Shown one piece after another: positions 18,885 through 23,502 of a stretch of DNA of 34,630 bases; within the stretch, counting starts at the first letter, position 1; the number at the start of each line of letters is the position of its first letter. The position numbers were made by a program, and so were the translations under genes. The stretch is from a virus, in the IMG/VR virus record IMGVR_UViG_3300044641_003169, positions 1-34,630 of that record, one strand, 5' to 3'. A model generated the notes under the pieces. The model had not been told where the DNA came from, made no database searches, and saw only the letters and a list, made by a program, of their open reading frames with translations.

Positions 18885-19925
18885 TCAGGAGTTCGCGTCG
18901 GCGATGTACAGACCGGACAGAGCAGCCGTCAGCACGGTCGCGCTGTTGTCGGTCACGCTGCCACGCACGCGACGGTTCCACGGATCGTCCATCGTTTCCA
19001 CGGTCATGTCCTCGTAGGCAAAGATGGTCGCCGTCGAGAACGACGGGCCTTCGTTGCCAATCAGACCGCCGGGACGGCTCACGAACACCATGCCGGGAGC
19101 AGACTCCGTGCCGTAGAGGAAACTACGCGCATCGGTAGCACCCTTGCGACTGGTCACACGAACGGTGTCATCGACCACCACGCCGCCAAGACCGAACAGC
19201 GTCTGCGGCAGACCGTAGGCCGCGAAGGTATCGTCGCCCTTCAAGAACGAGAACGCAGCGGGGTAGTTCTTCACATAGTCACGCACGCCTTCGCTGGTCG
19301 CCATGATGCGAGCAGTCGTTGGATTGACAATCAGCAGAATGTCCTTCGGAGACACCGCGCCGACCGTGTTCTGCACAATGCGCTCAATCGCCGCGCGAAT
19401 GATCTGCTGCACGCCATCGGTGCTGGTGATGTTCACGCCCGTCACCAGATTGGTTGCGGCAGCGTAGTAGTTCTGACTGCCACCGCTGGTGTTGTAGTTG
19501 CTGCTCGTGGTCAACTGCGTAGCCATACGCAGCGAACGGTGAGTCATCATCTTCGCAGCCGCGATGCGGGCATGGCTCGCCACCACATCCCATTGAGCCT
19601 GACGAGCAGTCTCCTGCGGGATGTGGAACGAGGTCTGGAAACGCTGCGTGGTGAACTGGTTGAACTCAAAGTCCGAGTTGATGCCAGTAGGACGATCCTC
19701 ACCAAGAGGCCACAGCAGATCCTGCGTGTTGACCACACGCGCGGTCTCCTGCTCGTCGATCCTCAAATAGTATCCGCTTTGCTGCTGCACGGGCACGATC
19801 TGCGCGTACTGCGTGATGGGGAAGCGGTTGACGCTGCGAGTGAACTCGATCTGAATCTGCCCGGTAGCGGCAGAGAAAGTGGGGACGAAAGTATTCAGTC
19901 CACCACCAATTCCTTCAAGAGCCAT
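18885..19925 (-). CDS. Major capsid protein
   Basis: The 346-residue product fills the standard place between decoration protein and connector. It looks like an HK97-fold coat protein: mixed alpha/beta, with a long helical stretch (about residues 110-135, WDVVASHARIAAAKMMTHRS), a P-domain-like centre (KDILLIVNPTTARIMATSEG) and a strand-rich end. Its N-terminus, MALEGIGGGLNTFVPT, contains nine residues (7-15) also found in the protease/scaffold precursor. The long N-arm usual in scaffold-containing HK97 proteins is short, consistent with a separate scaffold. A strong AAAGGAG ribosome binding site and a 3' hairpin fit high expression. Confidence 0.85.
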   Translation of the reverse strand: MALEGIGGGLNTFVPTFSAATGQIQIEFTRSVNRFPITQYAQIVPVQQQSGYYLRIDEQETARVVNTQDLLWPLGEDRPTGINSDFEFNQFTTQRFQTSFHIPQETARQAQWDVVASHARIAAAKMMTHRSLRMATQLTTSSNYNTSGGSQNYYAAATNLVTGVNITSTDGVQQIIRAAIERIVQNTVGAVSPKDILLIVNPTTARIMATSEGVRDYVKNYPAAFSFLKGDDTFAAYGLPQTLFGLGGVVVDDTVRVTSRKGATDARSFLYGTESAPGMVFVSRPGGLIGNEGPSFSTATIFAYEDMTVETMDDPWNRRVRGSVTDNSATVLTAALSGLYIADANS

Positions 19926-19960
19926 GTTTCATTTCTCCTTTTGTTTGTTGGGCTGTTGGA

Positions 19961-20362
19961 TTAGGCGTAGCGAGCGAAGCCAGCAATGCGCTGGACACGG
20001 ATGATGGTTCCAGAGGCCGCGCTCTGAAGTGCCACATAACCCTGATAGTTCAGACCCGTGGTGGTGGTTGCCGTGATGGCCTTGCCATCGCTGTCCGACT
20101 CCACCATCGCACCGCGAGTGATGTTGCCACCAGCCTCAACCAGCACGACATCGCCACCCTGAAGGGTGATGGGGTCGCCAGTCTCCGCGTGATTTGCGCT
20201 GTTGAACGCCTTGGTGCTGCCGTCGGTCACGCCGAGAACCGGAGTGGTGATGGCAGCGGACTGAAGGCCCGTATCGTCAGCCGAGGTCGAAGGCCGAACG
20301 AAGCGATAGGGCGCAATCGTGCCGCCCGCGATAAGTGCCGGAGTATCAGAGAAAGATCCCAT
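19961..20362 (-). CDS. Capsid decoration/cement protein (DUF2190-like)
   Basis: The 133-residue product is all-beta and resembles decoration proteins of the DUF2190 type. Features are the AGGTIAPYRFV opening, the VLGVTDGSTKAF segment, the GDVVLVEAGG strand pair and the SGTIIRVQRIAGFARYA ending. Such proteins bind the outside of the mature head and strengthen it. The gene lies between scaffold and major capsid genes, with GAAAGGACAAAAGAC before the ATG. Confidence 0.8.
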   Translation of the reverse strand: MGSFSDTPALIAGGTIAPYRFVRPSTSADDTGLQSAAITTPVLGVTDGSTKAFNSANHAETGDPITLQGGDVVLVEAGGNITRGAMVESDSDGKAITATTTTGLNYQGYVALQSAASGTIIRVQRIAGFARYA

Positions 20363-20380
20363 TGTCTTTTGTCCTTTCGA

Positions 20381-21040
20381 TTAGGCCTTCTGGCCCGTGT
20401 ACTTTGCGAACAGTTGCTTGAACTTGGCGAGGTCACCAGCGGCCTCATGCACCGCACGAGCGGTCGCCACCTTGGGGTCGAGGGTTTCGCCACCCTCATC
20501 GGTCACGGTGTGCTGCGCCACGGTCGGAACATTCAGCGGCAAGCGGGCCATCGTGGCCTTCCAAAACGCGATCTTCGCGCCGGGGTTAGCAGCGTCCGAC
20601 AGTTCCTCGACCATCGAATTGCGGAACTTGCCGCAGCGGTAACCGTCGCGGATCATGGAATCGACTTCCTTGCCGAACCGCTCCAACTTCAACTGCTTCT
20701 CAAGTTCCTGCACGCGTGCGAACAGAGCCTTCGTGCTCTTGTCACCCTTGCTCATCTTGGCCTTTCCGCCGTAGGCGGCTTCCATCTCCCCGTCCTCTTC
20801 CTCTTCCTCGCCCTGATGCGAGCCGATGTCAACATGCACGCCGTCGGCGAAGTTCTCCTCGTCCTCATCGCCATCGACGGGGCCAGCGAACTCCATGCCC
20901 TCGGCGGCCATCGCCTCGGCATCAGCCTCCTCGGCCATCTTGTCCTCGTCCTCGTCAACCGCGCACTCCATAGCGGCAGCCTCCAGAGCCTTCTTGGCCT
21001 CCTCGTCGGCTTCCATCTTCTTCTTCATCTTGCTGGGCAT
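20381..21040 (-). CDS. Nested scaffold protein from an internal start
   Basis: An in-frame ATG at 21040 (Met200 of the precursor, reading MPSKMKKKMEADEE) is preceded by AAAGGAAAGAAC, a ribosome binding site as good as those of the phage's own genes. It would yield a 219-residue scaffold without the protease domain, as with lambda Nu3 inside gpC. The product is acidic and helical with a basic start, typical of scaffolds that fill the prohead and are then removed. Confidence 0.7.
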   Translation of the reverse strand: MPSKMKKKMEADEEAKKALEAAAMECAVDEDEDKMAEEADAEAMAAEGMEFAGPVDGDEDEENFADGVHVDIGSHQGEEEEEDGEMEAAYGGKAKMSKGDKSTKALFARVQELEKQLKLERFGKEVDSMIRDGYRCGKFRNSMVEELSDAANPGAKIAFWKATMARLPLNVPTVAQHTVTDEGGETLDPKVATARAVHEAAGDLAKFKQLFAKYTGQKA

Positions 21041-21637
21041 GTTCTTTCCTTTGGTTCCTGCGGACGGGACGAAGGTGTTGAGTCCTCCGCCGACGCCAAT
21101 TTCATCAAACTTTTCCTTGGAGTCAATAGAAACGCGCACCACTCCAAGCGGACGCTCAAAGACCACCTTTGAGCCGTGCTTCGTGAATCGGGTATCCGGC
21201 AGCGGCCTGCGCGGCGTATCGCGCCCGAGCAGAGCCACCTCCGACAAGTGATTGTCTTTCCAAATCTCCGCGCTGCGGCGAGGGAATGCGTTGGTCGCTA
21301 GCAGCGAATCGAACGCCTCCTTCGGCATCTCCACATCGCCGACCACATAGGCAACGCCGTTGCGCTCTTCGTAGCGGACGCTGGTGATGTCGCCGACCGC
21401 CTCGGGCCGCGTGGCCTTTCCGTCCTTCTCGTGTTCGATGACGAGTTTAGGACGCGAGCCGCGCTGGATGAACTTCCCGGTGCGTGAAACGATGTCGCGC
21501 ACCTTGCGATTGTCGTACCCCTGCATGGCCTCGTCATCGTCCGAGTCGATGGACGGATCGAAGCCCATGAACAACTCAAGGTTCTTGATACGAACCTTGC
21601 CTTCTTCGGTCTTCTCGACGGTGTGGGATGCTGGCAT
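20381..21637 (-). CDS. Prohead protease-scaffold precursor
   Basis: The 418-residue product has two parts. Residues 1-160 form a head maturation serine protease of the XkdF-like type. The probable catalytic His69 lies in KLVIEHEKDG and the probable Ser122 in FPRRSAEIWKD, followed by LSEVALLGRD and PLPDTRF. Residues 200-418 are a highly acidic, helical scaffold-like region (Glu/Asp/Ala runs, then a coiled-coil segment ARVQELEKQLKLERF). Between them lies GGGLNTFVP (183-191), identical to part of the capsid N-terminus. The ATG at 21637 comes right after the previous stop; a TTG 30 bp upstream is an alternative start. The protease would cut scaffold and perhaps capsid during maturation. Confidence 0.85.
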   Translation of the reverse strand: MPASHTVEKTEEGKVRIKNLELFMGFDPSIDSDDDEAMQGYDNRKVRDIVSRTGKFIQRGSRPKLVIEHEKDGKATRPEAVGDITSVRYEERNGVAYVVGDVEMPKEAFDSLLATNAFPRRSAEIWKDNHLSEVALLGRDTPRRPLPDTRFTKHGSKVVFERPLGVVRVSIDSKEKFDEIGVGGGLNTFVPSAGTKGKNMPSKMKKKMEADEEAKKALEAAAMECAVDEDEDKMAEEADAEAMAAEGMEFAGPVDGDEDEENFADGVHVDIGSHQGEEEEEDGEMEAAYGGKAKMSKGDKSTKALFARVQELEKQLKLERFGKEVDSMIRDGYRCGKFRNSMVEELSDAANPGAKIAFWKATMARLPLNVPTVAQHTVTDEGGETLDPKVATARAVHEAAGDLAKFKQLFAKYTGQKA

Positions 21638-21639
21638 GG

Positions 21640-22542
21640 TTATGCCCAAGTGAGACTCCAAAGGCAAACGCTTCCGGCTGGCGAGCGAGTCAACTTGAAC
21701 ACATCCGAGAAGTCGCTATCAAACTTGCCACCCTTTTCTATCGCCTTTGCAATTGCCGAGTGATATCCGCTGACATCGGTTCCGGTGTTGTTTGCATAGA
21801 GACACGATCCGGGCTGTCGCGTGATCGCAAACCGCTCCTTGCGGCCCTTGCCGAAGTAGAAGCGATCCTCGACCTTGAAGGTCGCCTTCGCGCCGGGGCG
21901 GGAGAAGCGACCATACTTCTTCACAAGTTTTGGCATCTCCACCTTCAAGTCCGCTCCGCTTGCAAGAATGGCGTTGATGTCGTTCTTGATTTTTCCAGAA
22001 TCCATGATGCTCACGGGTACACCGTGGAAATACTCATAGAACACGGTTTCCCACTTCTCGCGCACCTTTGGCTTTCGCGTAGCCATCATTTCCTTCTCGC
22101 CGAGGCGGGAGGCAAGAATCTTGCTCGCGGCTCGTCGCGCACCAGCCTCGGTCGAATACCACTTGGAATCCACGAAGCGATCATTTGCCTCTCCGGGCAC
22201 AACCTGCTTCTCCTCCTGCATCACGGTCACAACCCATCGACCGTCAGCCTGTGGGCCGCTCAATTCAACTCGCTTGCTGCCCTTTCGCGCAACGACTTCA
22301 CGCGCCATCATTTCCTTCTCGCCGGGGCGGGAGAACTTGATTGTTTCTGCGTATCGCTTCAATTGCTCCACGGGGCCATCCTTGACATTGATTGGGGATT
22401 TACCGGGTTGATGTCGATACAGCGTTCCTCCTCCCCTTTTTGCATCTACCACAATCGTGAACTTTGTTCCGTTGATGGTTGCTTCCCATCCCTCTGACAA
22501 ATCTCCCCAGCCTTGCGATTGCGTACGCGACCAATTAGCCAT
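21640..22542 (-). CDS. Tag-bearing head-region protein (300 aa)
   Basis: I do not recognise the family. The 300-residue product looks like a chain of small domains joined by repeated peptide tags. FSRPGEKEMMARE occurs near residue 71 and SRLGEKEMMATRK near 145. FSRPGAK lies near 212 and VEDRFYFGKGRKERF near 220. The first domain (about 1-68) includes WEATINGTKFTIVVDAKRG. The domain between the two EKEMMA tags resembles its counterpart in the 22535-23179 product in its ARRAASKIL or ARRVASHGYS type end. The C-terminal part includes TGTDVSGYHSAIAKAIEKGGK, reminiscent of KTR or KGG-type small folds. It lies between Mu gpF-like and protease genes, so head assembly or an internal head protein is likely. 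Confidence 0.6.
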   Translation of the reverse strand: MANWSRTQSQGWGDLSEGWEATINGTKFTIVVDAKRGGGTLYRHQPGKSPINVKDGPVEQLKRYAETIKFSRPGEKEMMAREVVARKGSKRVELSGPQADGRWVVTVMQEEKQVVPGEANDRFVDSKWYSTEAGARRAASKILASRLGEKEMMATRKPKVREKWETVFYEYFHGVPVSIMDSGKIKNDINAILASGADLKVEMPKLVKKYGRFSRPGAKATFKVEDRFYFGKGRKERFAITRQPGSCLYANNTGTDVSGYHSAIAKAIEKGGKFDSDFSDVFKLTRSPAGSVCLWSLTWA

Positions 22543-23179
22543 TCTTCACCTCCACATTCCAGTAGCGTCCGATGGACTGCACCGGAGCCGTCGCGCTGTA
22601 GCCGTGGCTCGCCACGCGGCGAGCGAAGTTCCCAGCCACATCGCCGTCCTCAAACGAAATGACTAGCGCACCGCCGCCAGTCTCTACCGCACGCCATCCG
22701 CCCTCGGGCATCTGCTTCTCGGAGAGCAACTTGCCAAGCATGGGCGAGGACGAAGCCGCCGCAAATCCCTTTCGGTCAAGGCTCGACGCATCGAACCGCT
22801 CGGGCTTCTCGTTCTTCATCGGCACGCAGTTCGGCACGGTTCGACCGTCCTTGCGCTTCGTGCCGACAGGCTCGTAGCCATCCCAGCACGCTTCCTCAAG
22901 ATCGAACTCGTCGGGCTGACCGGGGCGGGAGAACACGCCAGCGTATTCCGCAACCTTTCGCCAACCTAAACGCATCCAGTATTCTGGATCATCCTCAAAA
23001 ACCTTTTCCATCGCCGCTTGTGCTTTGACCATTTCTGCCGTTGTTTTGAAATTGCTAACGATCCATGATCGCATTTGTGCGCGCGTCGCGCTTCCCATGC
23101 GACGATCACCCGCACTTTCCTCAAACCGCTCGGGCTGGCCGTGCTTGCCGAAGTAGAACTTGTCTTCAATGCTTGTCAT
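22535..23179 (-). CDS. Tag-bearing head-region protein with CWxGY module (214 aa)
   Basis: The 214-residue product starts with the tag IEDKFYFGKHGQPERF. FSRPGQPDEF occurs near residue 83 and a further tag KPERF near 127. Between them lies a module CWDGYEPVG, then KxKDGRxVPNCVP, recurrent in phage head-region and some giant-virus proteins and of unknown function. The C-terminal domain (about 160-214) has a compact strand-helix-strand look (GGGALVISFEDGDVAGNFAR). The mosaic resembles proteins built by shuffling short domains. It overlaps its neighbours by ATGA and 8 bp, so it belongs to the head operon. Confidence 0.6.
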   Translation of the reverse strand: MTSIEDKFYFGKHGQPERFEESAGDRRMGSATRAQMRSWIVSNFKTTAEMVKAQAAMEKVFEDDPEYWMRLGWRKVAEYAGVFSRPGQPDEFDLEEACWDGYEPVGTKRKDGRTVPNCVPMKNEKPERFDASSLDRKGFAAASSSPMLGKLLSEKQMPEGGWRAVETGGGALVISFEDGDVAGNFARRVASHGYSATAPVQSIGRYWNVEVKNG

Positions 23180-23502
23180 GAAGTCAGCCTTTGCTTTGGT
23201 TCTTTCGTAATTCTACGAGTTGAAACATAAATACTGAAGACCGGATTGTCAGGGTCGCGGATATTTGAATTGACCGCGATGTCAGCCCCATGTGCGCCGT
23301 ACGGCCACAACGCACTAGATAACTTTGCCCTCGCGGGTTGAACATCCTTCTGTCGCTCTTTGCCCTTGTACTCAAAGTACACATACTTGCCATCATCTGT
23401 TACTGCATCTGGTCGAACGCCGATAGAACTTGCGATTTGCTTTACCAATTCAATCTTGGCCTTGACCGACATGCCAAAATAAAACTTGTCTTCTGTGTTC
23501 AT
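23176..23502 (-). CDS. Tag-bearing small head-region protein (108 aa)
   Basis: I do not recognise the family. The 108-residue product begins with the tag MNTEDKFYFG, which is shared with the next two genes. A single small alpha/beta domain follows: helix VKAKIELVKQIASSIG, strand KYVYFEYKGK, a central basic helix, and end strand NPVFSIYVSTRRI. The layout could suit a small nucleic-acid-binding or nuclease-like fold, but no catalytic motif is clear. Codon use (TTT TAT TTT in the tag) is more AT-rich than its neighbours. It overlaps both flanking genes (ATGA). Confidence 0.6.
   Translation of the reverse strand: MNTEDKFYFGMSVKAKIELVKQIASSIGVRPDAVTDDGKYVYFEYKGKERQKDVQPARAKLSSALWPYGAHGADIAVNSNIRDPDNPVFSIYVSTRRITKEPKQRLTS

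Follow-up and report, generated by a model that had tools for sequence, protein, structure and literature searches.

Why should a phage keep the same short peptide in two different proteins of its head? The question is raised by IMG/VR virus record IMGVR_UViG_3300044641_003169, whose whole analysed stretch of 34,630 bases (the window) carries Mu-like head genes on the minus strand. On that strand the nonapeptide GGGLNTFVP is encoded twice. The copy at 19881..19907 forms residues 7-15 of the major capsid protein, in its N-arm (open reading frame, ORF, 18885-19925), and the copy at 21065..21091 forms residues 183-191 of a putative protease-scaffold precursor (ORF 20381-21667). The precursor numbering counts from the ATG at 21637; with the TTG start used instead, the copy becomes residues 193-201.

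A preliminary description of this DNA had reported the identical peptide at these residues, and both placements were confirmed, its precursor numbers fitting the ATG at 21637. Codon differences at six of the nine positions were likewise borne out. Its description of the flanks stood in part. The peptide is followed by Thr in the capsid protein and Ser in the precursor, as it had said, and the residues upstream of GGG are alike in make-up, but their order differs (E-G-I in the capsid protein, E-I-G-V in the precursor), so that no common order of acidic residue, Ile and Gly precedes the two copies. The number of shared 9-mers expected by chance for this capsid/precursor pair is 1.1e-6. When the 26 window ORFs treated as genes were compared in all 325 pairings, the runner-up among shared peptides was 7 residues long. 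Over all six frames of the window, xGxx[NSD]x[FY][VI]P, a loose version of the motif, is confined to these two sites.

Conservation of the peptide in related phages

Relatives were collected by six protein-based scans of viral contigs, each of which kept the best 80 of 101-326 relatives where more existed; the most distant relatives were not all sampled in these locus scans. They fall in several clades, numbered here by our own sequence-based grouping, with identity to the window down to about 44% for the capsid protein and about 36% for the precursor in the alignments made. The search for the peptide in both proteins of related phages, which the preliminary description had proposed, found the motif or a variant of the form x-G-x-x-[NSD]-x-[FY]-[VI]-P in both proteins of 179 of 180 distinct capsid/precursor pairs, the window counted. 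This count rests on a pattern that was widened after clades 3 and 4 had been seen, from GGG.NTF[VI]P to [GCP][GAVT][GAV].[NSD].[FY][VILA]P, and many of the 180 pairs are closely related (dereplication reduced 151 pairs to 96). With the loci first fetched by a motif scan excluded, 143 of 144 pairs carry the motif in both proteins. The sole exception, L048, has a precursor frame broken before the site; L277 matches it in capsid start and in the 167-residue broken piece, yet codes the peptide in another ORF fragment. Counted by protein, the motif is found in 164 of 164 distinct capsids and in 150 of 154 distinct precursors, the four others being L047 and L389, which stop at the contig edge before the site, the broken L048, and L244, which starts after the site. 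Elsewhere the loose motif occurred once in 3089 other ORFs of at least 150 residues from the paired loci. Judged from these sequences, these uncultivated phages form a family in which two distinct head proteins both retain a single short peptide.

The same picture was obtained by a gene-blind scan of IMG/VR with a degenerate DNA pattern of the motif alone. Among the matches listed, at least 153 in-frame occurrences of GGG.NTF[VI]P were found, at least 102 of them in precursor homologues, at least 50 in capsid homologues and one in a 93-residue ORF, while three loci (L217, L258 and L296) hold neither homologue. The peptide is thus a good marker, the pattern having fetched almost only this phage family among those matches. 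In the 2.2 Mb metagenome assembly that includes locus L190, the pattern occurs twice, on the same contig and 1.2 kb apart, the second time inside the capsid gene. The L190 contig (OMJK01000020.1) was binned in a Nitrospiraceae metagenome assembly, and it encodes a capsid protein with 88% identity over 91 matched residues. The binning gives a weak hint at the host, a binning error being possible. Searches of GenBank phages with the window capsid, the window precursor, a clade-4 capsid and the L193 precursor gave no match, nor did a plasmid search with the window capsid or a literature text search for the peptide letters.

The preliminary description had also argued that the peptide and not the DNA is kept, and the relatives together with the codon comparison support this strongly. 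Within genomes, identical residues of the two copies share a codon 476 times out of 1186 (40.1%), against 41.0 ± 1.1% with the genomes shuffled. Since codon agreement is no higher within than between genomes, selection acts on the peptide; conservation at the DNA level was ruled out by this independence of the codons, and identical 27-mers were found in only 2 of 150 pairs. The longest stretch common to capsid protein and precursor falls at the motif in 146 of 179 pairs; for the remaining 33, whose copies all differ, it has 3-5 residues and lies elsewhere. A shared peptide of at least 6 residues is present in 131 of 179 pairs, compared with 0 of 179 when the precursor is reversed.

In the clade of the window, both proteins mostly have GGGLNTF[VI]P, with GGGNNAFIP, GGGPNTFVP, GGGSNIFVP and GGGLNSFVP as further capsid forms and GGGSNTFVP and GGGANTFVP as further precursor forms. 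Clade 2 capsids mostly carry GGGLNT[FY]VP (GGGLNTYIP, CGGLNTFVP and GGGLDAYVP once each), and the precursors carry GGGLNTF[VI]P or GGGLNTYVP. Clade 4 capsids are mostly GGGLST[YF][VI]P, also GGGQSAYIP and GGGNSPYIP, with GGG[LQI]S[TSAP][FY][VI]P in the precursors. In clade 3, the capsid has GGGL[NS]TF[VI]P and the precursor PG[VA]GNVF[VI]P. The copies of locus L193 read FAYTGVGGGQNVFVP and FSYTGAGGGGNTFVP. Gly at position 2 and Pro at position 9 are unchanged throughout (164 capsids, 150 precursors). Tolerances are alike in both proteins at position 4, which is free, position 5 (Asn or Ser, one Asp), position 7 (Phe or Tyr) and position 8 (Val or Ile). Positions 1 and 3 differ, being Gly in nearly all capsids and Pro and Val or Ala, respectively, in clade-3 precursors. 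In residue numbers, Gly8, Gly9 and Pro15 of the capsid protein are identical in 164 of 164 sequences, and Gly7 in 163 of 164.

Setting of the two copies and the precursor

In the capsid protein the motif lies at the tip of the N-arm, within residues 1-32, whose predicted local distance difference test score (pLDDT) in the AlphaFold model is below 50. It ranks 11 of 338 windows for conservation, and conserved N-arm residues then run on through about residue 45. The precursor copy lies within a segment of pLDDT below 50 (residues 135-201) that separates the N-terminal domain from the first helix of the scaffold. Because of these low scores, both stretches are probably flexible and accessible. 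Over the entire precursor the motif ranks 31 of 410 windows for conservation; within residues 156-300 it is the best-conserved window of nine residues, with 0.816 against 0.669 for the next non-overlapping one. A second conserved island, H[VI]DI[GD]SH, was seen in the otherwise variable acidic scaffold region (VHVDIGSH at residues 267-274 of the window precursor) and is present in 104 of 150 distinct precursors.

The precursor has 418 residues from its ATG (20381..21637, minus strand). The preliminary description placed the peptide just before an internal scaffold start, and the sequences argue for such a start. An internal Met lies 6-12 residues past the motif Pro and is invariant in the 50 aligned precursors. 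Of 55 distinct regions upstream of it, 42 have a strong Shine-Dalgarno sequence and two (L331 and L406) have none; among the remaining internal Met codons, a strong sequence precedes 92 of 802. In the window, an AAGGA Shine-Dalgarno core (21047..21051, minus strand) stands 6 nt before the internal ATG (21040..21038). The predicted free scaffold would have 219 residues (20381..21040, minus strand), and as the peptide is encoded upstream of the predicted start, this form should be without it.

The label of protease, also given in the preliminary description, receives no support from the sequence libraries and some from the predicted fold. The window precursor matched no Pfam, PHROG or NCBIfam family, and 50 members of the precursor family gave scattered weak family matches, with no protease family among the matches listed. 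A PDB sequence search up to E 10 returned one weak match per query (E 1.4 and 0.08), neither credible, and profile comparison (hhalign) with single Mu and P2 sequences detected no similarity, such single-sequence profiles being uninformative. In the fold comparison, T4 gp21 came first of 995 chains, aligned to precursor residues 4-140 with Z 7.3 over 117 residues at 3.6 Å. The next rows were the varicella-zoster virus protease (Z 5.1), followed by the unrelated LetB and the pseudorabies virus protease (both Z 4.9), so that T4 gp21 stands about 2 Z units above the unrelated rows. The predicted fold may be that of T4 gp21 and the herpesvirus assemblins. All 50 aligned precursors have His69 and Ser122, which are candidates for the catalytic residues. 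A T4 gp21-like protease in the N-terminal domain is suggestive only, because Z is below 8 and the mean pLDDT of the model is 62.

Neighbouring head genes

The head genes of the window comprise terminase, a Mu-type portal, an F-like minor head protein, three ORFs, the precursor, a cement protein and the major capsid protein. The last of these (346 residues, 18885..19925, minus strand) matches the major head protein family phrog_1005 (E 4.9e-6). From its model it is assigned the HK97 fold: the best Foldseek match is 3bjq (E 8.7e-11), VIA scores Z 21.5 along 283 residues, and Z 14-17 is reached by a large number of phage capsids and encapsulins. The cement or decoration protein (19961..20362, minus strand) lies between precursor and capsid genes and matches PF09956 (E 6.9e-7). 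In Mu, portal, F, protease and capsid genes follow in the same order, with G between F and I, and the annotated scaffold Z starts in frame inside the protease gene I with its own ribosome binding site. Mu differs in having no cement gene between I/Z and T.

Two further observations concern this region. The ORFs between the minor head and precursor genes (21640-23502 of the window, minus strand, and in L034, L189, L409, L417 and others) carry a recurring F[SA]R[PS]G, often as FSRPGAKA or FSRPGQPE, with EDKFYFGK units in the same ORFs. It occurs 90 times in 3341 dereplicated ORFs of at least 150 residues, compared with 4.6 ± 1.5 times after shuffling, and may serve packaged cargo proteins as a targeting signal, linker or cut site. 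In L006, L002 and L017, the precursors are 97-98% identical to that of the window, and the adjoining capsids only 68-71% identical. This mismatch suggests exchange between the precursor and capsid genes, with the peptide kept.

What may read the two copies

The preliminary description had named a common cleavage or docking site of the protease and a capsid mimic as options. The explanation favoured here is a shared recognition element that is cut in both proteins by the phage's own protease, a proposal given about an even chance of being right. The element would serve twice, where the capsid protein begins with a flexible stretch and where protease and scaffold are flexibly joined, and its reader would be the T4 gp21-like domain of the precursor itself. 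The protease would cut the joint with the scaffold, thereby freeing itself, and inside the procapsid it would shorten the capsid protein by roughly its first 6-9 residues, much as P2 gpO is said to act on itself and on gpN. The cut that gpO makes in itself reportedly lies directly behind its protease domain. As described for P2, gpO likewise joins an N-terminal protease and a C-terminal scaffold in one gene; residues 1-141 form the protease, S107A is protease-deficient, and gpN loses its first 31 residues to gpO, which also cuts itself (PMC7552001). The phage's own protease is favoured because of this precedent, because both stretches are probably flexible, and because the precursor copy is confined to the protease-bearing form. 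In HK97, too, the cut site is described within an unstructured stretch (PMC10275583). Phage 80-alpha provides the precedent that one protease site can be common to coat and scaffold, its coat and scaffold sharing an N-terminal peptide that the host protease Prp cuts between F and A (PMC5744158). The likeness lies in one conserved peptide in the coat and in a scaffold-bearing protein; the difference is that the scaffold copy is N-terminal in 80-alpha (PMC5744158) and at an internal protease-scaffold joint here.

Several points weigh against a common cut site. The nonamer is identical in both proteins in 42 of 180 pairs, the remainder having at least one difference. On a tree of the 96 dereplicated pairs, changes in one copy are mostly not matched by changes in the other. 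Branches changed in both proteins number 0 at position 4 (P 1.0), 1 at position 5 (P 0.026) and 1 at position 7 (P 0.20). Of the two shared branches, one lies at the base of a clade of 25 and changes Asn5 to Ser, and the other is that of L188, where the Phe/Tyr changes run in opposite directions. Five capsids (L374, L376, L378, L381 and L384) have Ser5 without Ser5 in the precursor. Lock-step coevolution, tested at positions 4, 5 and 7, is therefore weak; both copies follow similar rules but do not move in lock-step. The model of the precursor is also of low confidence around Ser122, and the removed capsid piece, at 6-9 residues, would be tiny. Known systems differ as well. No peptide longer than 4 residues is shared by gpO and gpN of P2 or by I and T of Mu, and for P2 it is reported that no motif resembling the N-terminal helix of gpN was found in gpO (PMC7552001). 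The start of Mu T is annotated as confirmed by amino acid sequencing, so that T appears uncut despite the same protease/scaffold layout. T4 gp21 is described as recognising a short L/I-X-E motif (PMC9026906), which is absent from GGGLNTFVP, where nine residues are constrained. Finally, 80-alpha is reported to be viable with uncleavable or pre-cleaved coat, or with uncleavable scaffold; the scaffold copy is essential though its cleavage is not, so a shared site can serve another role (PMC5744158).

One such role is docking by capsid mimicry, which is possible but on balance doubtful. The N-arm peptide would occupy a groove in an adjacent capsid subunit, with the precursor copy serving to seat the protease on the inner face of the growing shell; the N-arm would take the groove once the precursor leaves, and cutting of the peptide would be unnecessary. 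In HK97, the N-arm of Prohead II is described at about the position of the scaffold in Prohead I (PMC10275583), and in D3 the Prohead 2 density at the former scaffold site has been suggested to be the N-arm (PMC12749128). If the N-arm can replace scaffold there, a copy of it carried by the protease could anchor that enzyme on the shell. The N-terminal helix and N-arm of P2 gpN are also reported to hold on to the P-domain of the adjacent subunit (PMC7552001). Conservation of the capsid from the peptide to about residue 45 is as expected of a structural arm, and the constrained stretch, nine residues with [FY][VI]P at the end, is long for a cleavage site. However, the predicted free scaffold is without the peptide, the near-invariant capsid glycines with little conserved upstream would be odd for a docking anchor, and the clade-3 precursor form departs from its capsid counterpart. 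It is unlikely that a third partner reads both copies, be it a host processing protease comparable to Prp, the portal or another head protein. The 80-alpha sequence cut by the host Prp in coat and scaffold (PMC5744158) speaks for such a partner, whereas the phage's own protease-like domain is joined to one copy, and the F-A bond of Prp appears in none of the motif variants listed. Chance, recent duplication or gene conversion without function is hardly credible, given the expected number of shared 9-mers, the synonymous independence of the copies and the persistence of the peptide at identities to the window of about 50% for capsids and about 40% for precursors. Chance and gene conversion were rejected on the first two of these grounds together with the 179 of 180 conservation.

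How a phage maturation protease enters the shell and is released is partly open even for T4, where a review counts gp21 autocleavage among the major gaps and suggests that propeptides may target gp21 into the prohead (PMC9026906). Cleavage by the phage's own protease, as favoured above, and docking could also be joined. The protease would then carry a mimic of the capsid N-arm, by which it sits in the N-arm groove while the shell grows, and its self-cut within that mimic would clear the groove for the real N-arm; this combination is put forward tentatively, as a rather unlikely case. Since there is one copy per protein, altering the nine residues could separate cleavage from docking directly. 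If the combined mechanism were true, seating of the protease, its release and locking of the shell would be one switch.

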